From: a virus
IMG/VR virus record: IMGVR_UViG_3300032326_001349
Span: 1-21,277 of that record
Length of the DNA: 21,277 nt
Strand: one strand, 5' to 3'
The notes below the pieces were generated by a model, which had not been told where the DNA came from, did not search any database, and saw only the letters and a list, made by a program, of their open reading frames with translations. Below, piece after piece: positions 2,743-21,164 of the stretch. Made by a program: the position numbers and the translations under genes. How positions within the stretch are numbered: position 1 is the stretch's first letter; each line of letters opens with the position of its first letter.

Positions 2743-3450
2743 ATGGGAATATCAGGTGGACCAGATATGATTCAAGATGGATTAGTGTTATCACTAGACG
2801 CCAGTGATAGAAATAGCTATCCTGGTAGTGGAAATAAATGGTTTGATGTAAGTGGAAATAATCATACTGGAAGTTTAGTTAATGGGGTTACTTATGATTC
2901 TTATAGAGGAGCAGCAGCATTTAGTTTTAATACAAGTCAACAACGTCATATTACCACTACGTTTACACTTCCACAACAAAGCCTATCCTCATCTTTTTCA
3001 ATCAATGCATGGTTTGCTCCACAGTTTCAAGACGATACTCTAGTTGCAGGATATAGAGGACCATCTTTGATATTTTATAAGATAACACCTAACAAGTTTG
3101 AAATGTATCCTGGTGAAATATTTTTGCCATCTACTTTAGCTACATGGAATAACATGTGTGCTGTTTGGGACGGTGCTACTTTCGGCACTAATACAAATAA
3201 TATGAAATATTATTATAATTCATTAAGCACACCAACATTAACAACTATAACGTCTCCTCCATATCTTAGAGATGGAGACAATCCTACATTTTACTCGGGT
3301 AACATGCCTTTTTATGTAGGTGGTGATCCAACAGGAAATGACTATTTTCAAGGATATATTGCATTAGTTCAAGTATATAATCGTGCTCTATCTTCAACAG
3401 ATGTTTTACAAAATTACAACGCACAAAAATCACGCTTCGGCTTAAAATAA
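2743..3450 (+). CDS. LamG-like (concanavalin-fold) virion protein, copy 1
   Basis: A 235-residue protein with the layout of a Laminin-G/concanavalin A-like lectin domain. It opens with 'DGLVLSLDASDRNSY', then 'W.DVSGNNHTGSL', a central beta-sandwich with 'INAWFAPQ', and a late 'GYIALVQVYNRALSSTDVLQNYN' strand. The last is the usual closing signature of Laminin_G_3 domains. Such domains bind glycans, and in phages they usually sit on virion surfaces for reversible attachment to cell-surface polysaccharide. No signal peptide is present. It starts 9 bases after the structural gene and ends 6 bases before a paralogue, so these genes are probably co-transcribed. The leader is A-rich (taaaaaaatact) with no Shine-Dalgarno. 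The C-terminal 'NAQKSRFGLK' tail is nearly identical in the next gene. The sugar target cannot be read from sequence. Confidence 0.8.
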   Translation: MGISGGPDMIQDGLVLSLDASDRNSYPGSGNKWFDVSGNNHTGSLVNGVTYDSYRGAAAFSFNTSQQRHITTTFTLPQQSLSSSFSINAWFAPQFQDDTLVAGYRGPSLIFYKITPNKFEMYPGEIFLPSTLATWNNMCAVWDGATFGTNTNNMKYYYNSLSTPTLTTITSPPYLRDGDNPTFYSGNMPFYVGGDPTGNDYFQGYIALVQVYNRALSSTDVLQNYNAQKSRFGLK

Positions 3451-3456
3451 AGTTAT

Positions 3457-4167
3457 ATGGCAACACAATACGCATTTGGAAAAATAGTAACAAACGGTTT
3501 AGTATTAGCATTGGACGCTGCTGATAGAAATAGCTATGTAAGTGGTAGTATGGTATGGAATGACTTAAGTGGAAATAGTATATCTGCTTCCTTTAATAAT
3601 CCTGGAACCGCTTCGTTTTCAAACAATGCTATTAATTTTACACCTTCAAGCTCATTCAATTCTACTGGTAGTTTTTACTCTATAACTGATTCAAGAATAT
3701 CATCTCTTACTACAGAACTTACTTTAGAAACCTGGGCAAATCCCTCTACAGTTACTTTCAATCTAACACGCCCTGTAAGTCCTAGAATTGATGAACGTGG
3801 TTCTCCATTAGGATTTAGTTTAGGTAGTAATGCTATAACTTATGAAATGAACACGTCTACAGGTTGGGTTACAGGAAATACTTCCAATTCAAATATATCA
3901 GCAGGTCGATGGGTACATGTAATGCAAACAACTTCAGATGCAGCAAAATCTTTTAAAACTTATGTAAATGGAGTTTTAGTTGCTGATTTAACATTTACAG
4001 GAACTCCAAATAGTGGTGGTGGTTTACTAATAGGTAGAGGATTCTATGGTGGAATTCAAAACTATAGTGGATTTGTACGTGTTGTTAGATATTACAACCG
4101 TGCATTATCTGCAACCGAAATCCTGCAAAACTACAACGCACAAAAATCACGATTCGGTTTAACTTAG
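3457..4167 (+). CDS. LamG-like (concanavalin-fold) virion protein, copy 2
   Basis: A 236-residue paralogue of the preceding gene. It shares the opening 'NGLVLALDAADRNSY', the 'W.DLSGN' motif, a central 'ELTLETWANP' strand and 'GRWVHVMQTTSDAAKSFKTYVNG' (typical of LamG sandwich edges), and it closes with 'VVRYYNRALSATEILQNYNAQ'. The middle differs strongly from copy 1, while the last about 13 codons are nearly the same at the DNA level (about 3411-3448 against 4126-4164). This is the pattern of an old tandem duplication with a conserved C-terminal tail. The probable role is a glycan-binding decoration or adhesion subunit. A candidate regulatory gap follows immediately, so this gene may end a transcription unit. 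Confidence 0.8.
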   Translation: MATQYAFGKIVTNGLVLALDAADRNSYVSGSMVWNDLSGNSISASFNNPGTASFSNNAINFTPSSSFNSTGSFYSITDSRISSLTTELTLETWANPSTVTFNLTRPVSPRIDERGSPLGFSLGSNAITYEMNTSTGWVTGNTSNSNISAGRWVHVMQTTSDAAKSFKTYVNGVLVADLTFTGTPNSGGGLLIGRGFYGGIQNYSGFVRVVRYYNRALSATEILQNYNAQKSRFGLT

Positions 4168-4221: not shown

Positions 4222-7200
4222 ATGCCTAATGAATTCGTAGCGCGCAATGGTATCATTGCTCTTAGTAACACCACTATAAGTGGTTCTTTATCTGTAACCA
4301 ATAACATAAGTGGTTCTATATTTACAGGCTCATTCGTTGGCAACTTAATTGGTACCTCATCTCAGGCTCTCACTGCATCTTTCATACAAGCATCAGGCGT
4401 TATTGGATTAAATTTATCACAAATTGCTACAGGTTCCGTTACAGCATCTGTAAGTGATGGTAGTGGTTCATTTGCTATAACTTCAGGATCTTCAACATTA
4501 TTATTTGTAAGTAGAAGTGGAAATGTTGGTATAGGTACTACAACCCCTAATAACTTAACTGATATAGTAGGTTCTACTACTGGAGATGGAGGCTCATTTA
4601 ATGGTACAGGAGCAATATTAAGAGTTAAACAAAACACATCTTGGTCTGCAAGTCAACCTTGGGCTTTATACGTTGAAGGATATTCATACTTAAATGGTTT
4701 TAGAATTAATGCTAGCGATGGTATTAGAGCATTATTAAAAACATCAGCAGGAGGTCAATTAGGCTTTGCTACTACTGGTAATGATCCTATTACCTTCACT
4801 CAATTAGACGCTACCGAAAGAATGCGTATTGCCGCCGGTGGTAATGTTGGTATTGGTATTACATCCCCAACAGCTTTACTTCATGTTTCAGGAACTTCAG
4901 GTACTTTATTACAAACAACAAGTGGTTCTACTACAGGTTTATTTGTAAGCTCTAGTGGATTTGTAGGTGTTGGAAATACAAATCCAACCCATATGCTTGA
5001 TATTACTACTAATAAAACAGGTAATGGTGCAGGAAGTACAATTAGAATAAATAGACTAGATAATAGTTCATATGAAAATGCTATTAACTGGGCTACTGGT
5101 GGAACTAATAAATGGTTTTTAGGATCAGATAATGATTCAACTGATAATTTTTATCTATACAATTGGGCAAGAAGTGCTTTTGAAATTACAGTATTATCAA
5201 CATCAGGCAATGTTGGTATAGGAAAAACAGCACCAAACACTCGTTTAGATGTTAATGGTAATACCTTAATATCAGGTAGTCTTACAGTAACAGGTAGTAT
5301 TATAGCTCAAACACTTATAGTACAAACAGTATCTTCATCTATAATTTATAGCTCAGGATCAAATATATTTGGAAACAAAGCTACAGACACTCAACAGTTT
5401 ACAGGATCTGTTTTAGTATCAGGTTCAATTACAGTATCAGGAAGTGTTACAAATAACCTTACTGCATCATATGCCTTAAATGCTGATGCTTTAGATGGTA
5501 TAAACAGTACCCAATTAGCAACTACAGGCTCAAACATATTTAGAGGAAACCAATCAATAACTGGTTCCTTAATCGTATCATCTTCTACATTCGCTACCGC
5601 TATTATAGGTAGTGGTTCAGGTGTATTTACAGTAGATGGTACTTCAGGTCGTCTATTCTCAGTTGATGATTCGCTTTCAGGATCATTATTCTCAGTGAAT
5701 ACAGCCGCTGGTTTACCAGTGATAGAAGCATTCTCTGACAATACAGTTCGTATTGGTCAGTTTGGTAGAAGAGCATTATTTGTTTCTCAATCCGCTATTG
5801 GAATAGGTAAGGAAACAGGTATAAATGGTGTTTTAGATATTAGTGGTAGTGTAGTAATTACTGGTAGCCTTTCAGTATCAGGAAGCATAGTAAATAATCT
5901 AACATCATCATTTGCTATATCAGCATCTTATGCTAGTAACTTTGATGCTGGATATGCAAAAACATTCTCACAATTAACACCAGCTGTTACTTGGTCAATT
6001 ATACATGATTTAAACTCATTAGTACCACTTATACAAGTGTATGATTTGAATTATAGTCAGATAATACCAGCATCAATTGTAAACACATCAAGAAGTGGTT
6101 CATCAATAACATTTGCAACTTCACAAGCAGGATATGCAGTTATATCAACGGGCGGTATAACCGTTACCGGATCAAACGCAATACTGTCGCAAACAACGCC
6201 GTCTGCTACTTGGTCGTTCGCTCATAACCTAAACACTCAATTCCCAGTTTTCACCGTTTTTGATTCAAGTAACAACGTTATAATGCCGTTACAAATTAAC
6301 GCAACTAACGCTAACTCTGCATCAATTTACTTCAGTTCACCTCAAATAGGTACTGCAGTAGCAGCAAACGGTGGTGTGGGTGCTGCTGCATCAAACAATG
6401 CTACAGCATCGTTTACAAACTCATCAACTTGGACATTCAACCATAATTTGAATAGACAGAATATAATAGTACAAACGTACGATTCTAGCTATAATCAAAT
6501 TATACCTCAAAATATTCAGTTAACAAGCATTAATACTGCTGTTATAACATTCCCTTCAAACACAAGTGGATATGCAATCGCCTCTATTGGTGGTGTTACA
6601 GGACAAGCTGTATCAGCATCTTATGCTTTTACTTCGTCTTATGTTTTACCTTTAGTACAAGATATATCAATTACGGGTTCATTAAGAATGAGTGGTAGTG
6701 CAACTTTTGGATTAGCATCTGCTGTAACAATAGATACTGATGGTACTTTTGGCCAAGATTATGGTACTATTGGATTTGGAGGAAGATCAAATGGATTCAA
6801 CAGAATATACGGCCGTTCAAACACAAGTGACGGTTTATATTTAGGTGCTGCAACAGGAAGAGGAATATTTTTAAGACCTAATGGAGCAAATATAAGTTAT
6901 TTAATTGTATCTTCTTCTGGAGCTGTAGGTATAGGACCTAATCTTTTAACACCACAAGCCTCACTTCACGTTTCAGGCACTACAGGTGGTGTATTTGAAG
7001 TTGATGGTGCTGCATCAGTAAATGCATTATATGTTAGTGCTAGTGGTGATGTTGGTATAGGAAAAATAGCACCAAACGCTCGTTTAGACGTTTCAGGTTC
7101 AGTATTAATATCAGGTAGCATTACAACAACAGGTACTATAACTGCACAAACGTTAGTTGTACAAACAGTAACATCTAGTGTTAGTTTTATAACTGGTTCT

Positions 7201-8349
7201 ACTAAATTCGGATCGTTAGCTTCTAATACGCATCAGTTTACTGGTTCAGTTTTAGTATCAGGTAGTCTTACATCAACTGGTACTGGATTGAATTCAAGTT
7301 TGAGAATTACTAACACAACTGCTACAACGGGTGTTGATTGGCATCTATATAGTTTAAATAATGGAAATTTTGGACTATATAATAATACTGGAGGTGCTTA
7401 TGCTTTGCAAATAAGTAGCAGTGGTAATGTTGGTATTGGTACAGCAACCCCTACAAGACCTCTTTTTGTAAATGGTAGTGCCTTTTTTGATAATAATGGA
7501 GATGGCTCTACTACAAACCCATCAATAGCTATTGGTTCAACAAATGTAGGTTTTTCTTATATTGCTGGTGGTGCTTTATCATTATTAACAGGTGCTACTG
7601 AAAGAATGCGTATTGTACCTTCAGGACATCTTCACATTAAAAACCGTGTTGCTTTTGATAGTCCTGTAGAGTTTATGTTTAACTCTAACTATGATAATAA
7701 TACTGACCTTGTTACTGCTGCTGGATATATTGCTAGAATTGAATTTTTGAATACAGATGGTATAATAAGATTCCAAACAGGAACTTCCGCAGCCTCTGTT
7801 TCTTCAGGTTCAGTTCCTGCATTTTCAGATAGACTAACTATTACTCCTGCTGGAAAAATATTAATTGGTACATCTACAAATGTAGGCCAACAACTTAGAA
7901 TATACCAGGCAACTACTAGTGAATGGAATATTAAACTTGTACAACCAAATGGTTCTAATCAACTGTTTCAAGAATTTTTAACTACAACAGATAGTGATGC
8001 TACCGCTACAGCAAGAGGCTCTATTACATATAATGGAACAAATGTGTTGTATACTGGAACCTCTGATTATAGATTAAAAGAAGATTTAAAAGAATATAAT
8101 GGCTTATCTATTATTAGTCAATTAAAAACATATGATTTTAAATGGAAAGAAGCTGGTACAAGAGATTATGGTATGATGGCTCATGAATTACAAGAGATAT
8201 TACCAAATGTTGTAACAGGAGAAAAAGATGCTTTAAATGAAGATAATAGTATAAAACCTCAGGGTGTAGATTATTCTAAATTAGTACCAATACTGATTAA
8301 AAGTATCCAAGAATTAACAGCACGCATAGAACAACTAGAAAATAAATAA
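4222..8349 (+). CDS. Large tail fiber protein with S74 self-cleaving chaperone
   Basis: A 1375-residue fiber and the longest gene here. The shaft is made of GSxxxSGS repeats and several 'SGNVGIGxxxP' units, usual in trimeric beta-helical phage fibers. 'ATERMRIAAGGNVGIG' occurs near residue 200 and recurs later. Residues about 580-795 hold three tandem 'TW(S/T)..H(N/D)LN...IxVYDxxxxxIxP' domains. The 45-residue 'AQTL(I/V)VQT' stalk module occurs twice (5293-5427 and 7132-7266). The C-terminal about 95 residues are a Peptidase S74 intramolecular chaperone. The site is S1281-D1282-Y-R-L-K1286: in this family the Ser and the Lys five residues on catalyse cleavage before the Asp, after trimer folding. 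'YGMMAHELQEILP' and a coiled coil ending 'IEQLENK' complete the domain. The role is host recognition. Receptor specificity is unknown. Confidence 0.88.
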   Translation: MPNEFVARNGIIALSNTTISGSLSVTNNISGSIFTGSFVGNLIGTSSQALTASFIQASGVIGLNLSQIATGSVTASVSDGSGSFAITSGSSTLLFVSRSGNVGIGTTTPNNLTDIVGSTTGDGGSFNGTGAILRVKQNTSWSASQPWALYVEGYSYLNGFRINASDGIRALLKTSAGGQLGFATTGNDPITFTQLDATERMRIAAGGNVGIGITSPTALLHVSGTSGTLLQTTSGSTTGLFVSSSGFVGVGNTNPTHMLDITTNKTGNGAGSTIRINRLDNSSYENAINWATGGTNKWFLGSDNDSTDNFYLYNWARSAFEITVLSTSGNVGIGKTAPNTRLDVNGNTLISGSLTVTGSIIAQTLIVQTVSSSIIYSSGSNIFGNKATDTQQFTGSVLVSGSITVSGSVTNNLTASYALNADALDGINSTQLATTGSNIFRGNQSITGSLIVSSSTFATAIIGSGSGVFTVDGTSGRLFSVDDSLSGSLFSVNTAAGLPVIEAFSDNTVRIGQFGRRALFVSQSAIGIGKETGINGVLDISGSVVITGSLSVSGSIVNNLTSSFAISASYASNFDAGYAKTFSQLTPAVTWSIIHDLNSLVPLIQVYDLNYSQIIPASIVNTSRSGSSITFATSQAGYAVISTGGITVTGSNAILSQTTPSATWSFAHNLNTQFPVFTVFDSSNNVIMPLQINATNANSASIYFSSPQIGTAVAANGGVGAAASNNATASFTNSSTWTFNHNLNRQNIIVQTYDSSYNQIIPQNIQLTSINTAVITFPSNTSGYAIASIGGVTGQAVSASYAFTSSYVLPLVQDISITGSLRMSGSATFGLASAVTIDTDGTFGQDYGTIGFGGRSNGFNRIYGRSNTSDGLYLGAATGRGIFLRPNGANISYLIVSSSGAVGIGPNLLTPQASLHVSGTTGGVFEVDGAASVNALYVSASGDVGIGKIAPNARLDVSGSVLISGSITTTGTITAQTLVVQTVTSSVSFITGSTKFGSLASNTHQFTGSVLVSGSLTSTGTGLNSSLRITNTTATTGVDWHLYSLNNGNFGLYNNTGGAYALQISSSGNVGIGTATPTRPLFVNGSAFFDNNGDGSTTNPSIAIGSTNVGFSYIAGGALSLLTGATERMRIVPSGHLHIKNRVAFDSPVEFMFNSNYDNNTDLVTAAGYIARIEFLNTDGIIRFQTGTSAASVSSGSVPAFSDRLTITPAGKILIGTSTNVGQQLRIYQATTSEWNIKLVQPNGSNQLFQEFLTTTDSDATATARGSITYNGTNVLYTGTSDYRLKEDLKEYNGLSIISQLKTYDFKWKEAGTRDYGMMAHELQEILPNVVTGEKDALNEDNSIKPQGVDYSKLVPILIKSIQELTARIEQLENK
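5965..6600 (+). repeat. Three tandem HNLN-type domains inside the large fiber gene
   Basis: Three copies of a roughly 65-70 residue domain follow each other, starting near 5965, 6172 and 6394. Each has a Trp followed by a His-(Asp/Asn)-Leu-Asn step, then 'V(Y/F)D(S/L)xxxxIxP', a 'SxxIxF' strand and a closing 'G-Y/T-A-x-x-x-x-GG(I/V)'. Protein identity between copies is only partial, so the repeat is old. The middle copy uses more C/G-ending codons (for example acg, ggc, ccg, tcg) than its surroundings, consistent with import from elsewhere. Confidence 0.7.
7132..7266 (+). repeat. Exchangeable 45-codon fiber stalk module (best of six copies)
   Basis: This block encodes 'GTITAQTLVVQTVTSSV', 'TGSTKFGS' and 'NTHQFTGSVLVSGS'. 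In-frame copies of the same length lie at 5293-5427, 8643-8777, 10415-10549 and 12829-12963, with a shorter relative at 14831-14950. The copies at 7132, 8643 and 10415 are close even at the DNA level, which suggests recent exchange or conversion. Each copy precedes gene-specific sequence, so it may be the crossover point for swapping fiber segments. Confidence 0.8.
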
Positions 8350-8354
8350 TTAAA

Positions 8355-10283
8355 ATGGTAATATATACCCCAGTCATATCAGGCTCATTAATAATCTCAG
8401 GTTCAATAGTAACTACAAGCGGTGGTTTACCATTAACAGGTAGTTTAGTGTCTTCAGGCTCATTTACCTCTATAGGACCTACTATAGTATCAGGTTCACT
8501 AACTGTTATTACAGGTAGTTCAATTGAATTTCAAGTATTAGATACAGGTGTTAGAATAGGAAACTTAGCTACTGATAACCATAATATAACTGGTAGCTTG
8601 CGGGTAAGTGGTTCTATTACAGGTTCTGGATTTTTAACTACTGGTACAATAACTGCGCAGACATTAGTTGTACAAACAATAACATCTAGTGTTAGTAATA
8701 TTACTGGTTCTACTAAGTTTGGATCAATTATAGGCAATACGCATCAGTTTACTGGTAGTGTATTGGTAAGTGGAAGTTTAGGAATTGGGACAAGTCCAAG
8801 TTCGCCTTTAGATGTAGTTGCTGATAATAGCACTGCAATAAATTTAAGATTAAGAGGTAGAGTATTAGATAATGTTGGGCAAATGGAATTTTGGAACAAT
8901 GCTCAATCCACAAGATATGGTTATATAGCTACTGACTCTGTTTCTATGGGGATAGTTACAACACAAAATCTTCCATTAGTATTAGGAACAAATAGTACTG
9001 AAAGAATGCGTATTAGCGGAAGTAATGTTGGAATTGGAACTACAAATCCAATTTCACAATTTCATATAAATGGTAGTACTGGAGGTACTTTTACAGATGG
9101 ATTAAGAATAAATAGAAACGGTAATGCTAATCAATATACGGTTATAAATCATGTTGGAGGTGCTTCTAATTTTATGACTGTTGATACATCTGGAAATAAC
9201 ATTGCTGAAATGTATTTCCAAAGATCTATAAATGGTACGGCCGCTACATCAAGCATGATGATAAACACTAACGGTAACGTTGGAATAGGAATGACGAATC
9301 CAACTACCGCTAGATTACAAATACAAACATCAGGCAATGGTCTTTCATATAGCAGTCCATTTTATTCGTGCGACAATTCTACTTATCAAAACGGATTCTT
9401 GATAAGTCATCTTGATGGACTTACAAGACTTATGACTACTTATACAGGCACCGGTATTAATTGTGATATGACATTTTGGACTACATTAAGTAATGGAAAC
9501 CAAGGTGAACGTATGCGTATCACAGCGGGGGGTAATGTATTAATAGGAATTGATAGAGTTTTTGGTATTAATACAGCTGACGGAACTGATAATGGATATT
9601 TAGCTTTATGCGGTGCCGGGGCAGACGGACCTACTAGAGGTGGGCATATCTATTTATCTGGTAATGAAAGAGGATCTGATCCTGGTACAGTTGTTTTATC
9701 TGCAGGTAACGTATCAGGCGGTTCAGTTATAGTTAGAACAGGTGCTGGTACAGAAAGAATGCGTATTGATTCAAGTGGTAATGTAACTTTTGGAGTAACT
9801 TCTGCTTATGATACTGCATTAATTTGGAGAACTGATTTTACAAGTACTGTTCACGGAAGAATATACGCAACTGGTTTACCAAGAGTAGTTGTAGTTGCCG
9901 GAGAAAGTGGTGGAGTTCAATTAACAAGCGGTGCAACATCTTGGACTTCAAATTCCGATGAAAGATTAAAAAATATTAACGGAGAAATTGAAAATGCTTT
10001 AAACAAATTATTAACTCTAAGAGCAGTTAATTTTAGCTGGAAATCCGATTTAACAAATAAAGAAAATTTAGGTCTTATTGCACAAGATGTAGAAGAACAG
10101 TTTCCACAAATAGTTGATAAAACAGAATTACCTAAATACGGCGAAGAGGAACAATCAGATAAAACAGAATATTTAGGAGTAAGATATACAGAAATGATCC
10201 CAGTCCTAGTAAAAGCAATCCAAGAACTAAAAGCAGAAAACGACACACTAAAAGAAATATTACAACGTAACAATATACAATAA
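8355..10283 (+). CDS. Tail fiber protein with S74 self-cleaving chaperone
   Basis: A 642-residue fiber paralogue. It begins 'MVIYTPVISGSLIISGSI', an N-terminal peptide resembling those of the genes at 10283, 12352 and 16591. The 45-codon stalk module follows at residues 97-141, then repeated '(S/T)ERMRI...GNVGIG' units. A unit near 9600-9720 with 'DGPTRGGHIYLSGNERG' looks like a distinct beta domain. The C-terminal S74 chaperone carries S534-D535-E-R-L-K539, 'LGLIAQDVEEQFPQIV', 'TEMIPVLVKAIQEL' and a coiled-coil tail. Cleavage before D535 would leave a mature fiber of about 534 residues. Its stop overlaps the next ATG by one base (TAATG), so the two are translationally coupled. Probable role: an alternative or additional receptor-binding fiber. 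Confidence 0.87.
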   Translation: MVIYTPVISGSLIISGSIVTTSGGLPLTGSLVSSGSFTSIGPTIVSGSLTVITGSSIEFQVLDTGVRIGNLATDNHNITGSLRVSGSITGSGFLTTGTITAQTLVVQTITSSVSNITGSTKFGSIIGNTHQFTGSVLVSGSLGIGTSPSSPLDVVADNSTAINLRLRGRVLDNVGQMEFWNNAQSTRYGYIATDSVSMGIVTTQNLPLVLGTNSTERMRISGSNVGIGTTNPISQFHINGSTGGTFTDGLRINRNGNANQYTVINHVGGASNFMTVDTSGNNIAEMYFQRSINGTAATSSMMINTNGNVGIGMTNPTTARLQIQTSGNGLSYSSPFYSCDNSTYQNGFLISHLDGLTRLMTTYTGTGINCDMTFWTTLSNGNQGERMRITAGGNVLIGIDRVFGINTADGTDNGYLALCGAGADGPTRGGHIYLSGNERGSDPGTVVLSAGNVSGGSVIVRTGAGTERMRIDSSGNVTFGVTSAYDTALIWRTDFTSTVHGRIYATGLPRVVVVAGESGGVQLTSGATSWTSNSDERLKNINGEIENALNKLLTLRAVNFSWKSDLTNKENLGLIAQDVEEQFPQIVDKTELPKYGEEEQSDKTEYLGVRYTEMIPVLVKAIQELKAENDTLKEILQRNNIQ

Positions 10284-12058
10284 TGGTAATACATAACGCA
10301 ATACTAACAGGTTCAATATTAATGCAGGCACCCCCTGTAATATCAGGTTCCTTAACACTAACAGGTAGCCTTAACGCTACAGGCCCTATAACAGGTTCAG
10401 GTTTCTTTACTGCAGGTACAATAACTGCACAAACGTTAGTAGTGCAAACAGTAACGTCTAGTGTTAGTAGTATCACTGGTTCTACTAAGTTTGGATCAAT
10501 TATAGACAATACGCATCAGTTTACTGGTAGTTTATACATTACAGGTAGTGTTGGTATAAATGCTGCTTCATCATTTAGATTTAACGGTGTTGGAGATATA
10601 TCACACGCTGTTGGGTATGATTCTGTTGTTGATGGTGCTTTTTTAAGAGGACAAAATGGAGTTAGATTTATAACAGGAACTGGAGGTGGTACTGAAAGAA
10701 TGCGTATTAGTGCTGCAGGAACTGCATCATTTACTGCTAACGTTTTAGCTAGTGCTGGAGATGCTGCTACTATTACTTTAAAACAAAATTCAACAACTGC
10801 TACTAGTGGTATTTACCTTGAAAGAAGTGGTGAACAAAAAGGTTACTATATATACATGGGAGGAAGTGTTGATAGCTTAACATTCCAAAGAAACAACGCA
10901 GGTACTAAAGCAGACGTAATGTCTTTAACTAGAGATGGCAATGTTGGAATCGGAACGACTAGTCCACAACAAAAACTTCATGTAGAGGGTGATGTTTATT
11001 TAGCAAACAATAGAAATTTATATTTTGCAAATAGTGGTGTTGCTGCTGGTGCAATTAGATTCTATAATTCAACAAGTAGCGCTACAAAGTCAATTATAGG
11101 TTCTTACTTAAATATAGCTGATGAGGGAAATATTGAATTTGCTAATGGTGCATCATTAACTACAAAAATGGTAATCACAAGCGGTGGTAATGTTGGAATC
11201 GGAACTTCTACCGTAACCGAGGGAACTCAAGCTGCAGGTTCTATATCTATATTTCCAAGCAGCTCAGTCTCAAGTGCTCCATTAATTCAATTTCCAGGAA
11301 ACGGAAGAATAAGACCAGCAAGCACAGGAGATAGATTATCTATAGACGGAAACTCGTTATTTCTTAATGGTACTTTTGGCGCAAATATTGTAATGGCTAC
11401 TGGAGGTGGTAGCGTTGGAATTGGAACGAGTAGTCCTACTAATGCATTACATTTAGTTAATGCCAATCATTATCAATTTAAAATTCAAGATAGTGCTGCA
11501 TCAATGTTATTTGGAGCAGATGATGGTATTATGATTGGTATTGAAATGGCAAATAGTGCCGGTGCAACTTGGTTTATAGGCCCTCATGATCCCGGTACCA
11601 CCGGCATTCAAGATAGATTAACAATAGGTAGATTATCGGGTACTTGGTCATATCCAGCTAAATTTTCATCAGGTGGAAATTTAACTATTTTAGGAACATT
11701 AACACAAAACGCATCCGATATTAGATTAAAAGATAATATTGTAAATATACCTAATGCTCTTAATAAAATTTTATCTTTAAATGGTTTTATTTTTAATTGG
11801 AATGAATTAGCATCTAGTCTAGGGCCATACTCTACTGATACAAAACAAGTTGGTGTATCAGCACAAGAAATACAATCCGTTTTGCCCGAAGCTGTATTTT
11901 TAGCTCCTTTTGATGTTGATAGTTTTGATGATAATAAATCAAAAAGCGGAGAAAAATATTTAACAGTTCAATATGATAAAATTATACCATTATTAATTGA
12001 AGGTATTAAAGAGCAACAAGCACAAATAGAAGAATTAAAAGCATTAATAAATAAATAA
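10283..12058 (+). CDS. Tail fiber protein with S74 self-cleaving chaperone
   Basis: A 591-residue fiber paralogue starting in a one-base overlap with the previous stop. The start 'MVIHNAILTGSI' resembles the previous gene's N-terminus. The 45-codon stalk module is at residues 45-89, followed by three 'GNVGIGT' units and 'GGGTERMRISAAG'. The S74 domain has S478-D479-I-R-L-K483, then 'KQVGVSAQEIQSVLPEAV', 'YDKIIPLLIEGIKEQQAQIEEL' and a short coiled coil ending 'ALINK'. Directly after the stop the same frame continues into a second, remnant coiled-coil tail (12059-12118), so the 3' end has been rearranged. Expected to be a trimeric receptor-binding fiber that trims its own C-terminal chaperone. 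Confidence 0.87.
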   Translation: MVIHNAILTGSILMQAPPVISGSLTLTGSLNATGPITGSGFFTAGTITAQTLVVQTVTSSVSSITGSTKFGSIIDNTHQFTGSLYITGSVGINAASSFRFNGVGDISHAVGYDSVVDGAFLRGQNGVRFITGTGGGTERMRISAAGTASFTANVLASAGDAATITLKQNSTTATSGIYLERSGEQKGYYIYMGGSVDSLTFQRNNAGTKADVMSLTRDGNVGIGTTSPQQKLHVEGDVYLANNRNLYFANSGVAAGAIRFYNSTSSATKSIIGSYLNIADEGNIEFANGASLTTKMVITSGGNVGIGTSTVTEGTQAAGSISIFPSSSVSSAPLIQFPGNGRIRPASTGDRLSIDGNSLFLNGTFGANIVMATGGGSVGIGTSSPTNALHLVNANHYQFKIQDSAASMLFGADDGIMIGIEMANSAGATWFIGPHDPGTTGIQDRLTIGRLSGTWSYPAKFSSGGNLTILGTLTQNASDIRLKDNIVNIPNALNKILSLNGFIFNWNELASSLGPYSTDTKQVGVSAQEIQSVLPEAVFLAPFDVDSFDDNKSKSGEKYLTVQYDKIIPLLIEGIKEQQAQIEELKALINK

Positions 12059-12118
12059 TATGAAATACTGGTTTATCAATCAATTAGACAAAAAGTAAAC
12101 GCATTAGAGAATAAATAA
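12059..12118 (+). pseudogene. Remnant of an S74 coiled-coil tail
   Basis: Reading on in frame past the TAA at 12056 gives 'YEILVYQSIRQKVNALENK' and a second stop at 12116-12118. 'KVNALENK' and 'ILV..SI' look like the end of S74 chaperones (compare 'IEQLENK' at 8349). Bases 12097-12118 are a degenerate direct repeat of 12037-12058, offset by exactly 60 bases. This suggests that the present 3' end replaced or duplicated an older one. It is not expected to be translated unless the first stop is read through. Confidence 0.5.
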
Positions 12119-12134
12119 AATAAAATAAAACAAT

Positions 12135-12329
12135 ATGAAATACATCGTACTAATGGAATTTTTACCAGGTTTAGCACAAATCTGGGTAGCACGTTTAACA
12201 CCAGAAGATCCAATCTACTCATTCGACACGTATGAGGAATGTGTTGCAAAAGCAGCAGAACTACAAGCCGCAGACGAAACAGGCAGATTGTACAAAGCAT
12301 CTCAAGAAGAAGAAGGAGTAACGTACTAA
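12135..12329 (+). CDS. Small protein of unknown function (64 aa)
   Basis: I do not recognise this gene. It encodes 64 residues: a hydrophobic N-terminal third ('YIVLMEFLPGLAQIWVARL') followed by an acidic, probably helical part ('TYEECVAKAAELQAADE') and an acidic C-terminus. The first part is too interrupted by Pro and charge to be a confident membrane helix; a small beta-hairpin plus helix fold is more likely. It lies between two fiber genes, behind an (AATAA)-like AT tract and an SD-less A-rich leader (aaaacaat). Codon use is more C-rich (atc, ttc, cgt) than in the fiber genes, which supports real coding and perhaps separate ancestry. A fiber assembly factor or a passenger gene are both possible; neither is shown. 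Confidence 0.65.
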   Translation: MKYIVLMEFLPGLAQIWVARLTPEDPIYSFDTYEECVAKAAELQAADETGRLYKASQEEEGVTY

Positions 12330-12339
12330 TATTTATATA
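12330..12339 (+). promoter_or_regulatory. Recurrent intergenic TATTTATATA motif (copy 2)
   Basis: The motif begins directly after the stop of the 64-residue gene and ends 12 bases before the next fiber ATG. It lies in a small perfect inverted repeat: ATATTT (12329-12334) and AAATAT (12340-12345) around ATATA. At this distance it would be a very short leader if transcribed from here. Confidence 0.45.
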
Positions 12340-12351
12340 AAATATAACTAA

Positions 12352-14658
12352 ATGATTTTAGATAGTCCCTTTATAAGTGGCAGTATGAGTTTTGGCATCG
12401 CCAACCCATCAGCAACAATGCATATTTCTGCATCGACAGGAGCTGTATTGCGAGTAGATGGTGGTGGTGTAACAAACACAGGTTCCCTATTCGTTAGCTC
12501 TAGTGGAAACGTTGGTATTGGAACCACAATTCCAGTATCAAAATTACAAATTGAAGGTGGAGCTTTAAGAATAGGTGATGGTGCTGGTGCGTGGTCTGGA
12601 TTTACATTTTCTGGAGGTCTTAGACAAACAAATAATAATCCTTTAACAATATTAGGAGAATTACGTGTTGACAGTACAGCAGGTAATCCTAGCTACATTA
12701 GTGGTAGTGGAGGACTTGGTATTGGTAAAACTACAGCTAACACTCGTTTAGATGTTAATGGCAACACTTTAATTTCAGGTAGCATAAATGCTACAGGTCC
12801 TATTACAGGTTCTAGTTTTACAACTACAGGTACTATAACTGCACAAACATTAATAGTACAAACGATTTCATCGTCTCTTGAATTTGTGACTGGTTCTACT
12901 AAATTTGGATCGTTAGCTGCTAATACACACCAGTTTACTGGTAGTTTATTTGTTACTGGTGCTTTAAGTGGTACAAGTGCTACATTCTCAAATATTGTCA
13001 ATCTAAATGGAGAAGGTACTTATATTGGAATAGATGCCCAAGCAATTCCAAGATTAGGTTTTGTAAAAATATCAGGTGCTCAACCTTTTTTAGGATTTGC
13101 AACAGATCCTTTTACTATAAGAGTTTCAAGTGGAGCTACAATAGCCACTTCTAATACATTTACAACTTTATTATCCATTGCTACTTCAGGCGCTGCTACA
13201 TTCTCAGGTAGTGTACAATCAAGGGGATTTGTTGCTGTTGGCGCAAGTGGTGGATATACCACTGGTGATAATACTTATATAAATTTAGGAGGTGCTGCAT
13301 CTGTTGATAGCTTTGGGGCAATTAATATGCCTTTTGGTGATAGAATGAGATTTAATTCATATCATGGATTTGAATTTAAAACAAGTAACACTACTGCTTC
13401 ACCTATAACAATGGTTACTATTGGTATAAATGGTACTGCTATTTTTAATGGTGGTAATTCTGCTGATGTTAATAATACTCCAATAAGAGTACCAAATAAT
13501 AAATTTTTAACATTTTATAATGCAGCTGATAATGGGTGGGCATTTACACTAGGTGCAAATACTGACAATAGTGGTGGTATTGGTGGAAATGCTGGTCTAG
13601 TATTTCAAACAGGTGGTTCACTTGCTACAAGAATGTTTATTGCAAGTGGAGGAAACATTGGGATTGGAACTACTACTAATATAGATAGAAGACTTACTAT
13701 AAATTCAGGTGCTTCAGAAGGTATACTTGGATTAACATCAAATAATGGTGTTGAGATAGATATGGTTGGATATGGTACTGGGTTTACATATCCTCAAGCA
13801 AGAATAAAATTAACAGATGATGGATTTTATGGAGGTAGTTTAAGTATTTGGACAAAAAATAATGGTGCGCAAACAAATCCTCTAGCAGAAAGATTTAGAG
13901 TTGGTGGAATTGGTTTTACAGCAAGTGTAAGAGGGGCTAACGATGCTGATTCTAAAACTTTTATGAATGCTCTTAATACGTCTTGCGGATTAATTCCAAC
14001 ACCAGCAGGCACAACTCTTTATTTATATAATAGAGATGGAGGTACTAATTATAGAGTATTGTTAACATCAAGTACATACTTTACAGGCCAACATGGTAAC
14101 AAACCCGTTAATTTAGACTTAAAAACTAATCTCCAAAACTATATTGGATTAATCGTTAGTTCAGCTGGTACTTTCTACTCAGTAAATCCAATTACTCAAG
14201 AAGTAACTACAGGAAAAGATGCAATTCAAATCTCAGAAGCATTACCAGAAATCAAATTAACAGATACAGATCAGGATAAAGCGGTTTGGGGTGTTGTTAC
14301 AAACGTTAAAAACGATAACTACAACACAGATGGTACTGTTGAAACAGATAACGATACAGAATGGGGTGATAGATTAGGTAGTAATATTGTTCGTATAAAC
14401 GGATTAGGTGAAGGAGCAATTTGGATAACTAATATCAATGGCAATATTGAAAATGGAGATTACATTTGTTCATCAATCATACCAGGGTATGGTAGAAAAC
14501 AAGATGATGATTTGTTACACAATTATACAGTAGCAAAATCTACTATGGATTGTGATTTTGATTTAAATAATGATGGATTGTATGTATGTGAAGAATTTGA
14601 ATTTGAAGGACAAACATATAAAAAAGCATTTATAGGTTGTACTTATCACTGCAGCTAA
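12352..14658 (+). CDS. Tail fiber protein with non-S74 C-terminal domain
   Basis: A 768-residue fiber. It starts 'MILDSPFISGSM', has 'GNVGIGTTIP' and 'GLGIGKTTANTRLDVNG' units, the 45-codon stalk module at residues 160-204 and a long beta-rich middle. Unlike its neighbours it has no S-D-x-x-L-K site. Instead, from about residue 570 it carries 'STYFTGQHG', 'YIGLIVSSAG', 'DAIQISEALPEIKL', 'GVVTNVKN', 'LGEGAIWITNINGNIENGDY', 'IPGYGRKQDDDLLHNYTVAK' and a Cys-containing end 'FIGCTYHCS'. From memory, very similar strings occur in predicted proteins of algal giant viruses and other marine phages. The pattern also recalls Peptidase_G2-type self-cleaving chaperones. I infer an alternative trimerisation and maturation domain, not confirmed. 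The TATTTATATA motif lies just upstream. Confidence 0.82.
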   Translation: MILDSPFISGSMSFGIANPSATMHISASTGAVLRVDGGGVTNTGSLFVSSSGNVGIGTTIPVSKLQIEGGALRIGDGAGAWSGFTFSGGLRQTNNNPLTILGELRVDSTAGNPSYISGSGGLGIGKTTANTRLDVNGNTLISGSINATGPITGSSFTTTGTITAQTLIVQTISSSLEFVTGSTKFGSLAANTHQFTGSLFVTGALSGTSATFSNIVNLNGEGTYIGIDAQAIPRLGFVKISGAQPFLGFATDPFTIRVSSGATIATSNTFTTLLSIATSGAATFSGSVQSRGFVAVGASGGYTTGDNTYINLGGAASVDSFGAINMPFGDRMRFNSYHGFEFKTSNTTASPITMVTIGINGTAIFNGGNSADVNNTPIRVPNNKFLTFYNAADNGWAFTLGANTDNSGGIGGNAGLVFQTGGSLATRMFIASGGNIGIGTTTNIDRRLTINSGASEGILGLTSNNGVEIDMVGYGTGFTYPQARIKLTDDGFYGGSLSIWTKNNGAQTNPLAERFRVGGIGFTASVRGANDADSKTFMNALNTSCGLIPTPAGTTLYLYNRDGGTNYRVLLTSSTYFTGQHGNKPVNLDLKTNLQNYIGLIVSSAGTFYSVNPITQEVTTGKDAIQISEALPEIKLTDTDQDKAVWGVVTNVKNDNYNTDGTVETDNDTEWGDRLGSNIVRINGLGEGAIWITNINGNIENGDYICSSIIPGYGRKQDDDLLHNYTVAKSTMDCDFDLNNDGLYVCEEFEFEGQTYKKAFIGCTYHCS

Positions 14659-14674
14659 AACTAAAAAATAAATA

Positions 14675-15979
14675 ATGGGTCAAACTGTAACTTTAGTTAA
14701 ACAAGGAGGTGATCCATCATTTACCTCACTAACAGTAAATGGACCCACCATTTTAAGTGGTAGTTTCTATACTAGTGGTAGTTTAAATGTTAGTGGAAGT
14801 ATATTTACAAGTGGTAGTTTAGTTGTTAGTGGTAGTATTATTGCTCAAACATTAATTGTAAACTCTACTTCGTATAGTAGTGGATCAAACGTATTTGGTA
14901 ATTCACCTTCAAACACTCAAGTGTTTACAGGTTCAATGTATGTTAGAGGATTTATATCAGGTTCTTCATTTACAGGTAGTGGTGCTGGTTTAACTTCAAT
15001 CCCTAATAGTGCTTTAATTAATAGCACTATTTCAGGTATTTCTTTAGGTTCTAATTTAGCTAAATTAACAATTGGAACTGGATTAAGTGGAACTTCATAC
15101 AATGGTTCTACTGGAATTACTATTGCAAACACAATTACAAACACAAACCAATTAACTAATGGTGCTGGGTTTATAACATCTGCAGGCACTGCAGCTGCTA
15201 TTTCTCAAACAGTTACAGGTACAAACAGTGCTGAACTTGTTAGAGGTAATATGGCTGATAACGATCAGTTTAGAATATTAGTTGGAGGTACTGCTTCAAA
15301 TGCTGGCTTTGTAGAGATTGCTACTGCAGATGATGGTACAGAACCAATTTATGTTAGACAATATACTGGAGTATTTACATCACTTACTAGAACAGCTACA
15401 TTATTAGATGGATCAGGAAATACAAGTTTTCCTGGAACTGTAAGTGCAGCAGCAGCAACTATTACTAATAGTATAACAGTATCTTCTGGTAATACAACAG
15501 GAAATGGTATTATATTAGCAGATGATGGAGATATAGTAGATCTAAATGATGCCTATTGCTCAATGAGATTTTCGGCTGGTGTGAGAGTTTTTTCAGCAAA
15601 TAGAGGAGGAAGTGCTGTTATTAAACTAGGAAATGGAGGTGATATTGTAGCATCTGCAGATATTACAGCATATGGTTCTCCTTCTGACATTAACTTAAAA
15701 GAAAATATAAAACCGCTAGATAATTCACTAAGTAAAATTCTAAAATTACAGGGTGTAACTTTTGACTGGAAAGAAGACTCTGAAACAAGACAATACACTA
15801 ATTTAAAAGAAGATATAGGTTTTATAGCACAACAAGTACAGGAAGTTATGCCGGAGTTGGTTAGAAAAAATGATAATGGATTATTGTCTTTAAGAGATAA
15901 AGGTATTACTGCTTTATTAGTTGAAGCAATTAAAGAGCAACAAAAACAAATAGATGAATTAAAAGCAAAATTAGGTTAA
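14675..15979 (+). CDS. Tail fiber protein with S74 self-cleaving chaperone
   Basis: A 434-residue fiber. The N-terminus, 'MGQTVTLVKQGGDPSFTSLTVNGP', differs from the other fibers, so it may attach elsewhere. A GSxxxSGS shaft follows, then the shortened stalk module (14831-14950), a Gly/Thr/Asn-rich stretch ('LTNGAGFITSAGTAAAISQTV', close to common phage fiber linker repeats) and a short head. The S74 chaperone has S337-D338-I-N-L-K342; the usual Arg is Asn here, but the catalytic Ser-Lys pair is intact. 'IGFIAQQVQEVMPELV' and the coiled coil 'IKEQQKQIDELKAKLG' end the protein. It is separated by 16 bases from the preceding fiber and one base from the next gene, so it is likely co-transcribed with both. 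Confidence 0.86.
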   Translation: MGQTVTLVKQGGDPSFTSLTVNGPTILSGSFYTSGSLNVSGSIFTSGSLVVSGSIIAQTLIVNSTSYSSGSNVFGNSPSNTQVFTGSMYVRGFISGSSFTGSGAGLTSIPNSALINSTISGISLGSNLAKLTIGTGLSGTSYNGSTGITIANTITNTNQLTNGAGFITSAGTAAAISQTVTGTNSAELVRGNMADNDQFRILVGGTASNAGFVEIATADDGTEPIYVRQYTGVFTSLTRTATLLDGSGNTSFPGTVSAAAATITNSITVSSGNTTGNGIILADDGDIVDLNDAYCSMRFSAGVRVFSANRGGSAVIKLGNGGDIVASADITAYGSPSDINLKENIKPLDNSLSKILKLQGVTFDWKEDSETRQYTNLKEDIGFIAQQVQEVMPELVRKNDNGLLSLRDKGITALLVEAIKEQQKQIDELKAKLG

Positions 15980-17025: not shown

Positions 17026-18015
17026 ATGCATAATCTAAGATTAGGAATATATGAAAATCAGGTGCCGTCGGCTACACCTTCACTTACGCCAACTGCTACT
17101 CCTAGTCTTACGCCTTCTATCACTAGAACGCCTAGTATTACTGCTACACCTTCTATAACGGCTACTCCATCATTGACTGCTACTCCATCGTTAACGCCTT
17201 CTATTACTAGAACTCCTAGTATTACTGCTACTCCATCGTTAACCGCTACTCCGTCATTAACGCCTAGTGTTACAAGAACGCCTAGTATTACTGCTACACC
17301 TTCTATAACAGCAACACCATCATTAACGCCTTCTATTACTAGAACACCATCTATAACAGCTACTCCATCATTGACTGCTACACCATCGTTAACACCTAGT
17401 ATTACTAGAACACCTAGTATAACAGCAACACCTAGTATCACTAGAACACCTAGTATTACTGCTACACCTTCTATTACTAGAACACCAGACCCAACTAGAA
17501 CACCATCCGTAACTAGAACACCAGATCCAAGTGTAACACCAACACCATCTGTATCTAGAACACCAGACCCAAGCATAACACCAACACCATCTGTATCTAG
17601 AACACCAGATCCATCTGTATCTAGAACACCATCAGTTACACCATCAGCAACAATACCAAATGTAACAATAAGTGCTCAAGGTTCAGTAAATGTGTACTCT
17701 TCAACTATTGCTTATAAATTCTCTACAAGTGAAGGATCTACAGGAGCTAACCAAGCTACTATATACGGAACTTTCAATTCGGCTAACTTTAATGTTCCTA
17801 ATTTACCATCTGATGGCTCAAATATTGATGTAACATTCTATGTAAATAGAGTAGCTCCGGACGGCATTGCTGGTGATATAGGTTATATGTATTGGTATGT
17901 AGATTCTGTTCCTCAAGATTATCAAGAATTTGACTCAGGTCTTACAGTGTCAAGATTCTCTGTTCTAAGCATAAATAAGAATAGTGTTGTAGTAGTAACT
18001 GTTCAAGAAGGATAA
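17026..18015 (+). CDS. Thr-Pro-Ser repeat stalk protein with C-terminal beta domain
   Basis: A 329-residue protein in three parts. Residues 1-17 are a short leader ('MHNLRLGIYENQVPSAT') with no clear signal peptide. Residues about 18-210 are an almost pure Thr-Pro-Ser repeat built from PSITRT, PSITAT, PSLTAT and PSLT units, drifting to TPDPSVTPTPSVSR at the end; this should form an extended, stiff, non-globular rod. Residues about 211-329 form a globular beta domain ('PNVTISAQGSVNVYSS', 'FNVPNLPSDGSNIDVTFYVN', 'YWYVDSVPQ'). I do not recognise that domain. The layout, a rod carrying a head, fits a thin fiber or whisker. The many Ser/Thr residues could be glycosylated, but nothing shows this. 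The minus strand is also open because the repeat lacks stops; I treat that as a by-product. Confidence 0.8.
   Translation: MHNLRLGIYENQVPSATPSLTPTATPSLTPSITRTPSITATPSITATPSLTATPSLTPSITRTPSITATPSLTATPSLTPSVTRTPSITATPSITATPSLTPSITRTPSITATPSLTATPSLTPSITRTPSITATPSITRTPSITATPSITRTPDPTRTPSVTRTPDPSVTPTPSVSRTPDPSITPTPSVSRTPDPSVSRTPSVTPSATIPNVTISAQGSVNVYSSTIAYKFSTSEGSTGANQATIYGTFNSANFNVPNLPSDGSNIDVTFYVNRVAPDGIAGDIGYMYWYVDSVPQDYQEFDSGLTVSRFSVLSINKNSVVVVTVQEG
17113..17460 (+). repeat. 66-base tandem repeat coding the Thr-Pro-Ser rod
   Basis: Units start at 17113 (a longer 84-base version with one extra hexapeptide), 17197, 17263 and 17329, each of the last three exactly 66 bases, with a diverging unit from 17395. 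Each encodes PSITRT-PSITAT-PSLTAT-PSLT with small changes. Synonymous codons change along the array: acg-cct and act-cct early, aca-cca late. Length variation between relatives is expected through slippage or unequal recombination. Confidence 0.85.
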
Positions 18016-18060
18016 TTTGGATATCTAAAATAAATTTGGTTGTTTCCTAAATCTATTATA

Positions 18061-18070
18061 TATTTATATA
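18061..18070 (+). promoter_or_regulatory. Recurrent intergenic TATTTATATA motif (copy 4)
   Basis: The motif lies in the 78-base gap before the small membrane protein gene, 23 bases ahead of its ATG at 18094. In the same gap, TAAATTTG (18031-18038) fits the Bacteroidota -7 element TAnnTTTG, but the upstream TTTG at 18016 is too close for the usual -33 spacing. This gap is the best candidate for a new transcription start before the small-gene group. Confidence 0.45.
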
Positions 18071-18093
18071 CAGTAAACAAATAAAACAAAAAT

Positions 18094-18345
18094 ATGAGTA
18101 CATTCGCTATCGTAGTATTAGTATTGGCTATCGGTGCTATCGCTACATTCATCGCCATGAAAACTGGTAAAGTTGCAGATGCAAACAACAACAACATTCC
18201 TGACGCTATCGAAACTAAAGTAGAAGAAGTTAAAGAAGTTGTTAAAGATGTTAAAAAAGCAGTTGCTAAAGTAACTGAAGCTCCTAAGGCTAAAGCTCCA
18301 AAACAACCTGCTAAACCAAAAGCTAAAAAAACAACTAAGAAGTAA
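18094..18345 (+). CDS. Small single-pass membrane protein with basic tail (83 aa)
   Basis: Residues 4-22 ('FAIVVLVLAIGAIATFIAM') form one clear N-terminal membrane helix. Then comes 'DANNNNIPDAIE', which resembles an Asp/Asn-rich calcium-binding loop (the DxNxDGIPD type of thrombospondin-3 or EF-hand-like repeats). A charged amphipathic helix 'VEEVKEVVKDVKKAVAKV' and a Lys/Pro/Ala tail ('PKAKAPKQPAKPKAKKTTKK') follow. The length and single helix are compatible with a small holin-like or membrane-anchored protein, but the long basic tail is not typical of known holins and the function is unknown. Codon use favours ATC and TTC, as in the sheath gene and unlike the fiber genes, which suggests strong expression. 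The next ATG is 3 bases after the stop. Confidence 0.75.
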   Translation: MSTFAIVVLVLAIGAIATFIAMKTGKVADANNNNIPDAIETKVEEVKEVVKDVKKAVAKVTEAPKAKAPKQPAKPKAKKTTKK

Positions 18346-18347
18346 TT

Positions 18348-18809
18348 ATGGAAAAAATCAGTTTAAAACTATATGAATTCTATAACCTAGAATCAGAATT
18401 AAACGGAGTTGTGAATCAACAAACCGGTGATAAAGTATCAGCTGGTTTATTAGCTGAGAAATTAAAGTTAACAACTAAATATTGGTTAACGGAATTATCT
18501 AAAAAAGTTATTGCTGAAAAAGCTACTGTTGAATCTTTGAAAGAAGAATTGATCAAAAAGCACGGCGAAACTGATGAACAAGGTAATGTTGGTATTTCAA
18601 TGTACATCGACATCGTTAGAGATGAAGAAGGTAAAATTGTAGAAGGTAAAAACAATCCAAAATTCATTGAATTCCAAAATGAATTTAACATGTTGTTACA
18701 AGAAGAAAAAGAATTAGAATACAAGCCTATTGATCTTAATGAATTAGAAAACATTGAGTCTGAAGGTAACTATCCTACAATCTTCAAACTAGTAAAAGTT
18801 AGTGAATAA
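18348..18809 (+). CDS. Tail-region protein of unknown function (153 aa)
   Basis: A mainly helical, acidic 153-residue protein with no signal or membrane segment. The order is 'LKLYEFYNLESELNGV', then a long helix 'TKYWLTELSKKVIAEKATVESLKEELIKKHGETDEQGNVG', then 'NNPKFIEFQNEFNMLLQEEKELEYKPIDLNELENIE'. This plan (N-terminal strand and helix, a 'KYGxxDExGN' turn, then 'FxxEFNxLLxxExEL.xKPIxLxxLE') resembles the DUF1617 phage family as I remember it. That family is typically encoded near tail genes and has no known function. The match is by pattern only. Coupling is tight: 2 bases after the previous stop, with an 8-base overlap into the next gene. Confidence 0.72.
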   Translation: MEKISLKLYEFYNLESELNGVVNQQTGDKVSAGLLAEKLKLTTKYWLTELSKKVIAEKATVESLKEELIKKHGETDEQGNVGISMYIDIVRDEEGKIVEGKNNPKFIEFQNEFNMLLQEEKELEYKPIDLNELENIESEGNYPTIFKLVKVSE

Positions 18810-19032
18810 ACTTAGTGAAATATTTCAGGCGTGGGTAGCTGCGGCTAATCCCACACCTGAAAAAAAACTATTAGCTGAACAGCGCACTGCTATTTGTGAC
18901 GGATGTGAACACAAAACCTATACTAAATTATTAGATTTATATACGTGTGGGTTATGTGGATGTCCTCTTAAGAAAAAAGTATTTAGTCCTAATGGACCTA
19001 ATGCCTGTCCAGGCAATAAATGGGAAAAATAA
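18802..19032 (+). CDS. Zinc-ribbon-like small protein (76 aa, GTG start)
   Basis: The likely start is GTG at 18802, overlapping the previous gene by 8 bases; no in-frame ATG exists near the 5' end. After a helical N-terminus come 'CDGCEH', 'CGLCGCPLKKKV' and 'NACPGNKW'. That is two CxxC pairs plus two further Cys, enough for a zinc-binding ribbon. Small proteins ending 'CGxCGCPLxxK...CPxxKW' are common in phage tail regions and appear to be a recognisable but uncharacterised family. They may bind a structural metal ion. The overlap implies translation coupled to the upstream gene, perhaps to set a low level. No catalytic motif is visible. Confidence 0.75.
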   Translation: MNKLSEIFQAWVAAANPTPEKKLLAEQRTAICDGCEHKTYTKLLDLYTCGLCGCPLKKKVFSPNGPNACPGNKWEK

Positions 19033-19037
19033 ACGTT

Positions 19038-19307
19038 ATGTCACAAAAATTAACACCAGAAGAATTACAACAAGTAAAAGATTTACAGTCAAAGTACAAT
19101 CAAACAGTATTTGAAATTGGTATTGCTGAAGCACAAATTTTAACATTCGAAAAGAATATTGCAAAATTGCGCGAAGATAAAACTAATTTAGTAGCCGATC
19201 TTGAAACAATTGAACGTAAAGAATCGGAACTAATCGAAGTATTGAAAGTAAAGTACAGCGAAGGCGTGATTAATCCTGAAACTGGTGAAATAACACCTGC
19301 TCAATAA
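19038..19307 (+). CDS. Coiled-coil protein of the tail region (89 aa)
   Basis: I choose the ATG at 19038 (MSQKLTPEEL) over an in-frame ATG at 19020. The earlier start would overlap the upstream gene by 13 bases and add only MGKINV; 19038 has the A-rich leader seen elsewhere. Residues about 4-72 form an almost continuous coiled coil ('LQQVKDLQSKYNQTVFEIGIAEAQILTFEKNIAKLRED...LETIERKESELIEVLKVKY'). A short tail 'GVINPETGEITPAQ' follows. Proteins of this size and layout with an 'INPETGEI' ending recur next to tail genes of T4-like phages; the function is unknown. A scaffold or assembly factor for sheath or tube is possible from position only. Confidence 0.75.
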   Translation: MSQKLTPEELQQVKDLQSKYNQTVFEIGIAEAQILTFEKNIAKLREDKTNLVADLETIERKESELIEVLKVKYSEGVINPETGEITPAQ

Positions 19308-19328
19308 GATATCTGCGTTTTATGGTGG

Positions 19329-19374
19329 TTTTTGGATATTTATTATTAGGTCAATCCTAATAAAATTCCAAAAA
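19329..19374 (+). promoter_or_regulatory. Two-part hairpin in the tail sheath leader
   Basis: Outer arms TTTTTGGA (19329-19336) and TCCAAAAA (19367-19374) are perfect complements. Inside them, TTATTAGG (19343-19350) and CCTAATAA (19356-19363) form a second perfect 8-base stem around TCAAT. ATT (19338-19340) can also pair with AAT (19364-19366). The structure ends 11 bases before the sheath ATG and contains the TATTTATTA motif (19337-19345). No U-run follows the stem, so a simple terminator is unlikely; RNA stabilisation, processing or a protein-bound operator fits better. Confidence 0.6.
19337..19345 (+). promoter_or_regulatory. Recurrent intergenic motif, TATTTATTA form (copy 5)
   Basis: This shorter form of the TATTTATATA motif lies between the two stems of the sheath-leader hairpin, 40 bases before the ATG. 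The same form precedes the tube gene at 21133, so the two main tail genes share one variant and the fiber and small genes share another. Confidence 0.4.
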
Positions 19375-19385
19375 TAATATAAAAA

Positions 19386-21116: not shown

Positions 21117-21125
21117 GGAATGTAG
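21100..21125 (+). terminator. Hairpin spanning the sheath stop codon
   Basis: CTACATTCCC (21100-21109) and GGGAATGTAG (21116-21125) are a perfect 10-base inverted repeat around AGCATA. The stop codon TAG (21114-21116) lies at the loop and 3' arm. The following bases, ttgcttatattta, are T-rich but not a clean T-tract. It could be a leaky terminator or an RNA stabiliser that sets sheath above tube, or a processing site between them. Confidence 0.55.
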
Positions 21126-21132
21126 TTGCTTA

Positions 21133-21142
21133 TATTTATTAA
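21133..21142 (+). promoter_or_regulatory. Recurrent intergenic motif, TATTTATTAA form (copy 6)
   Basis: TATTTATTAA lies between the sheath-end hairpin and the tube ATG at 21165. It is flanked by TTGCT (21126-21130) and AGCAA (21144-21148), a second small inverted repeat, so again the motif sits in a potential loop. Confidence 0.4.
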
Positions 21143-21164
21143 TAGCAATTAAATTTAACATAAA

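Follow-up and report, generated by a model that had tools for sequence, protein, structure and literature searches.

All five tail-fibre genes in a virus record from an uncultured, contractile-tailed phage carry a module of about 45 residues (consensus GTLTAQTLVVQTITSSVQFVTGSTKFGNLLTDTHQFTGSVNISGSL), which we consider to be probably a connector in the fibre stalk. Selection would act on its protein sequence, and ordinary phage recombination would use it as a joint that supplies homology and keeps the register. Related phages are often alike in a fibre up to the module and wholly different past it, and recent junctions of this kind are concentrated at the 3' edge of the module.

A module repeated across five consecutive tail-fibre genes

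The window, i.e. the whole stretch of DNA that was analysed, is 21.3 kb long. It includes a tail sheath gene at 19386-21116, whose nearest isolates are Flavobacterium phage immuto (~53% identity) and Microcystis phage Mel-JY01 (50%). The five fibre genes lie in a row on the plus strand (4222-15979), and Peptidase_S74 was found above the Pfam cut-off in fibre genes 1, 2, 3, and 5, and not in gene 4. Using a module profile of 46 residues, built iteratively from relatives, we located the following copies:

4222..8349, + strand: fibre gene 1, 1375 aa, C-terminal Peptidase_S74 chaperone, two module copies
5293..5427, + strand: module copy 1, in frame in fibre gene 1, 65.6 bits
7132..7266, + strand: module copy 2, fibre gene 1, 74.2 bits
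8355..10283, + strand: fibre gene 2, 642 aa, Peptidase_S74
8481..8618, + strand: divergent module copy, fibre gene 2, 51.0 bits, in tandem upstream of the 8643 copy
8643..8777, + strand: module copy 3, fibre gene 2, 70.9 bits
10283..12058, + strand: fibre gene 3, 591 aa, Peptidase_S74
10415..10549, + strand: module copy 4, fibre gene 3, 71.5 bits
12352..14658, + strand: fibre gene 4, 768 aa, without Peptidase_S74 or another Pfam family
12829..12963, + strand: module copy 5, fibre gene 4, 73.1 bits
14675..15979, + strand: fibre gene 5, 434 aa, Peptidase_S74
14831..14956, + strand: module copy 6, fibre gene 5, 42.2 bits, four codons shorter

The initial annotation had proposed six in-frame copies over five fibre genes, five of equal length and a shorter sixth. 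Indeed, all six start in codon phase 0 on the plus strand, and copies 1-5 form a gapless alignment of 45 codons. The count of six was too low, as the divergent seventh copy at 8481-8618 had been overlooked, and the proposed placement at similar points of the fibres applies to genes 2-5 (residues 45-160) and not to gene 1 (residues 358 and 971).

Several other features of the window were recorded alongside the fibre genes. The C-terminal region of fibre gene 4 (13801-14658), in which neither S74 nor any other Pfam family was found, is possibly a different intramolecular chaperone. The region between fibre genes 3 and 4 (12107-12332) contains a 64-codon ORF (12135-12329) and has matches of 72-80% nucleotide identity in six related loci (L011, L019, L035, L031, L015, and L049), at least some of which sit in other gene contexts, as in L011; a search of 12100-12330 gave no Rfam match, and the region and its ORF gave no significant Pfam or PHROG match. 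Directly upstream of the fibres, at 2743-4167, two neighbouring paralogs that carry Laminin_G_3 (ConA-like lectin) domains have the C-terminal motif QNYNAQKSRFGL in common. Finally, an ORF of 329 aa at 17026-18015 has a long TPSIT/RTPS repeat array with periods of 18 and 48 nt and matches PHROG_15511 (unknown function; 4.9e-16).

The module is widespread among uncultured phages

In IMG/VR we confirmed at least 527 module stretches, and after removal of redundancy 103 loci gave 210 fibre ORFs with 364 copies in all. A single copy is present in 129 of these ORFs, at a median residue of 104 of the open frame, and the others have up to 11; large phage records (119-212 kb) hold 1-11 copies each. 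Scanning of MAG contigs added six candidate stretches. The window copy, searched together with its flanks, matched no isolated phage at E <= 1e-3. The module consensus finds one isolate, Microcystis phage Mel-JY01 (3e-8), whose structural protein WWT39289.1 contains two copies in one gene. Pfam has no family on the N-terminal fibre pieces that contain the module, and single copies gave no PHROG match below E 0.05.

The longest array was seen in L149, where an ORF of nearly 3000 codons from locus position 7198 has 11 module hits. Two of these hits, which overlap or are adjacent, are 98.6% identical and represent a recent tandem expansion.

Signs of protein-level constraint on the module

Judged by its Gly/Ser-rich alternating sequence and its fibre context, the module is probably a beta-rich trimerising stalk segment that sets the strand register. 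The AlphaFold monomer model is weak (pLDDT 74, pTM 0.33), and with this model no significant fold match was obtained in PDB or BFVD. A profile search of PDB sequences returned hits at E 0.4-1 only, including the T5 straight-fibre protein pb4 and the Tip attachment protein J, which serve as leads only.

The initial annotation had suggested comparing synonymous divergence in the module with that of its flanks. Across 58 pairs of orthologs that span the module, module and flanks had equal pS in most identity bands (e.g. 0.53 compared to 0.50 and 0.52), pS of the module being lower in a single band (80-85%, six pairs), so that no overall synonymous difference emerged. In the same pairs, pN of the module was usually lower than that of the flanks. 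Lower pN at about equal pS indicates protein constraint rather than homogenisation of the DNA.

Recent fibre junctions of related phages are enriched at the 3' edge of the module

When DNA homology between related phages was compared pairwise by blastn, 12.7-19% of the break sites fell within the module, slightly above the 10-12% expected. Its final 20 nt stood out, with about six times the expected number of ends of upstream homology. Counting how many alignments end in the module was nevertheless rejected as a measure, because the excess is weak and partly a product of alignment behaviour. For this reason, we adopted a strict junction test on a non-redundant set, in which the DNA upstream had to be at least 85% identical and the 100 residues that follow had to show no detectable similarity at the protein level. 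Under this definition, 10 of 36 junctions were located between -30 and +20 nt relative to the module end, where 1.3 were expected (7.9-fold), and the maximum across 400 rotations was 5. Chimeric junctions at the module, which the initial annotation had called for, are therefore present between related phages. Homology of high identity ends at 33 of the modules that it reaches and runs through another 43, a stop share of 43% compared to 25 ± 5% at random intervals. Junctions of the reverse type, with the same body and a different upstream part, showed no enrichment at 85% identity (2 of 21 at the module).

At the ten junctions, identity within the module falls from 5' to 3' (0.86, 0.79, and 0.70 by thirds), although these junctions were chosen by where the alignment stops, and such selection alone favours falling identity in the last third; where homology continues, identity is flat at 0.95, 0.98, and 0.96. 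The decay fits crossovers that would lie inside the module or at its 3' end.

Single pairs of phages illustrate such switches. In one fibre of loci L164 and L189, the N-terminus and the first module codons are common to both at about 95-96% and divergence sets in inside the module; the remainder of the L164 module, and the L164 body with it, are ~77-81% identical to other L189 fibres. In the preceding gene of this pair, N-terminus and module are 89% identical and are followed by unrelated bodies, past which homology returns at the start of the next gene. A third case involves L138, the contig of L018, which is 83% identical to the window over 18030-21277. The L018/L138 module is 86% identical at the nucleotide level to window copy 2, and in L138 this copy-2-like module is followed by a body 88% identical to that of window gene 5 after copy 6.

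The module is not the sole joint, as most mosaic breaks fall outside it. Three-way mosaic switches showed no significant enrichment at the module (none at 70% identity), and two other fibre motifs, GNVGIG and ERMRI, showed an edge enrichment comparable to that of the module. These observations bear on a second explanation, according to which the module is a purely structural repeat and the junctions reflect selection for breaks at domain boundaries, produced by random or illegitimate recombination in which the module DNA has no part. The equal pS of module and flanks in orthologs agrees with this explanation, as does the equal enrichment of breaks at other conserved motifs, and at left-type breaks the partner carries the module at that spot in just 14 of 159 cases. 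At recent right-type junctions, however, the module is present in both partners and its identity drops along its length, which is what crossovers within shared DNA would produce, and L164 and L189 switch within the first module codons. We therefore regard a purely structural role as unlikely, if still a serious contender.

The recombination joint that the initial annotation had envisaged is supported in part: the concentration of recent junctions at the 3' edge speaks for it, and the missing pS signal and the similar behaviour of other motifs speak against it. Of the two observations that were together to argue against such a joint, equal synonymous divergence was found and an absence of chimeras was not.

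General phage recombination as the likely source of the junctions

Neither a reverse transcriptase (RVT_1), as in a diversity-generating retroelement, nor a serine recombinase (Resolvase) of the Mu Gin or P1 Cin type was detected in 13 large relatives, in line with the initial description of a modular system without a recombinase nearby. RecA-family matches were present in 12 of these 13 relatives, with eight scoring above the family cut-off; the window, at 21 kb, is only a fragment. Given that neither reverse transcriptase nor serine recombinase was detected in these relatives, the simplest mechanism would be general phage homologous recombination during co-infection.

We thus return to the stalk connector that doubles as a joint. 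The module would be a short structural connector of tail-fibre stalks, often closing the N-terminal shaft before the host-facing body and, mostly here, the S74 chaperone. Its recurrence as one protein unit across many fibre genes could let it act as a joint as well: in a co-infected cell, homologous or homology-relaxed recombination would cross over within the module or at its 3' edge, thereby attaching another body with reading frame and register kept. The enzymes at work would presumably be those of the general phage machinery, and the swapped bodies may alter receptor specificity. The module profile provides a searchable landmark of the points at which environmental phage fibres are broken and rejoined; with it, host-range evolution through exchange of bodies can be tested in metagenomic long reads without isolates.

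Some window copies share DNA ancestry, and near-identical copies within a genome are rare

The copies at 7132, 8643, and 10415 had initially been described as very close at the DNA level, more so than their flanks. Their nucleotide identities are 79%, 79%, and about 85.5-87% (the last between copies 3 and 4), and their flanks are mostly unalignable (~30% identity); copies 3, 4, and 5 also have ~20 codons upstream in common (63-72% nucleotide identity). Since most paralogous flanks are unrelated, comparing module with flank among paralogs is not meaningful, and pairwise synonymous distances of the window copies and their flanks were discarded as uninformative on the same grounds. A codon-usage control, which left out the shorter copy 6, counted identical codons at positions with the same amino acid against the expectation from codon usage. 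Identical synonymous codons amounted to 30 of 38 between copies 3 and 4 (17.6 expected), 28 of 37 between copies 2 and 4 (17.2), 27 of 41 between copies 2 and 3 (18.9), and 25 of 35 between copies 2 and 5 (17.0), while copy 1 remained at the codon-usage background against all other tested copies. This excess indicates that copies 2-4, and partly copy 5, are of more recent common DNA ancestry than copy 1. The described closeness is thus borne out as DNA ancestry beyond codon usage, with the flanks unusable as a yardstick.

Such shared codons could also point to exchange among the fibre genes of one phage. The module might be kept partly as a built-in, recombinase-free platform, on which occasional conversion or crossover between paralogs circulates bodies within and between phages, a reading that we consider quite improbable; if true, such paralog exchange would mean that fibre bodies circulate among one phage's own fibre genes. 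A stronger version posits an active intragenomic cassette system, in which the fibre genes of one phage are continually trading bodies or converting each other's modules. Besides the synonymous codons that window copies 2-4 have in common beyond codon usage, the relationships of module copies across contigs are compatible with it. For 34 of 77 ortholog pairs, a paralog from the same genome is more similar than the ortholog: window gene 3 and ORF 5475 of L035, for example, are 82.7% identical in their N-termini and only 65% in their modules, and window copy 4 and the L035 module are each closer to own-genome paralogs (85.5% and 87.7%, respectively). The nearest neighbour of a module copy lies in the same contig in 17% of cases, compared to 1% expected, and copies are on average more similar within contigs than between them. 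However, near-identical paralogs are rare, as only 2 of 707 within-contig pairs reach at least 90% identity, and both are confined to one ORF. Synonymous sites are close to saturation in typical within-contig pairs (synonymous codon match 0.50, compared to 0.46 from codon usage), no within-strain variants were seen, and no dedicated recombinase was found in the 13 large relatives. A continually active cassette system is therefore highly unlikely.

Recent gene conversion as a general process was likewise rejected for typical pairs, whose synonymous matches are near the codon-usage level. Because most copies are near-saturated at synonymous positions, frequent present-day swapping within genomes is not supported, and the proposal that the phage swaps fibre segments inside its own genome found no support in these comparisons. 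Occasional duplication or conversion among own-genome copies is likely.

Chance likeness of low-complexity, Gly/Ser/Thr-rich stalk sequence, which the many GSL/TGS repeats of the window fibres might suggest, can be set aside as next to impossible, because the window modules score 42-74 bits with the HMM compared to a maximum of 5.7 in 200 composition-preserving shuffles of the same fibres, and the module has invariant residues at fixed spacing.

Relation to known systems

In T-even-type adhesins, short conserved motifs within the gene are recombination joints that work without a dedicated recombinase. Tetart and colleagues reportedly found in 1998 that recombination between such motifs swaps adhesin specificity (cited through PMC6466182 and PMC11414711). 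The arrangement found here is of the same kind, with homology on one side of the motif and unrelated sequence on the other at 10 of 36 strict junctions. Whereas adhesin swapping of the T-even type takes place at one locus, the stalk module is present in up to 11 copies and in several genes.

Smug et al. 2023 (PMC10684548) report recent domain shuffling in phage receptor-binding proteins and fragments common to otherwise unrelated fibres. The module resembles those fragments in being common to otherwise unrelated fibre proteins. Theirs is a general survey, whereas the present case concerns one module that occurs in several genes per genome and marks the junction.

For the tail-spike genes of Ackermannviridae, conserved 5' ends have been proposed as homology sites, and recombination between tsp4 and tsp5 has been observed (PMC11414711). 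The conserved N-terminal part of these paralogous receptor-binding genes is thus a homology site similar to the role considered here for the module; it belongs to the tail-spike branching domains, in contrast to a repeated stalk module in mid-fibre.

Microcystis phage Mel-JY01 shares with the window both the module and a tail sheath of 50% identity, but has the module in one gene only, annotated merely as a structural protein, compared to five genes in the window. What differs here is a single module without a named family that extends over several fibre genes per genome and is common to many uncultured phages.
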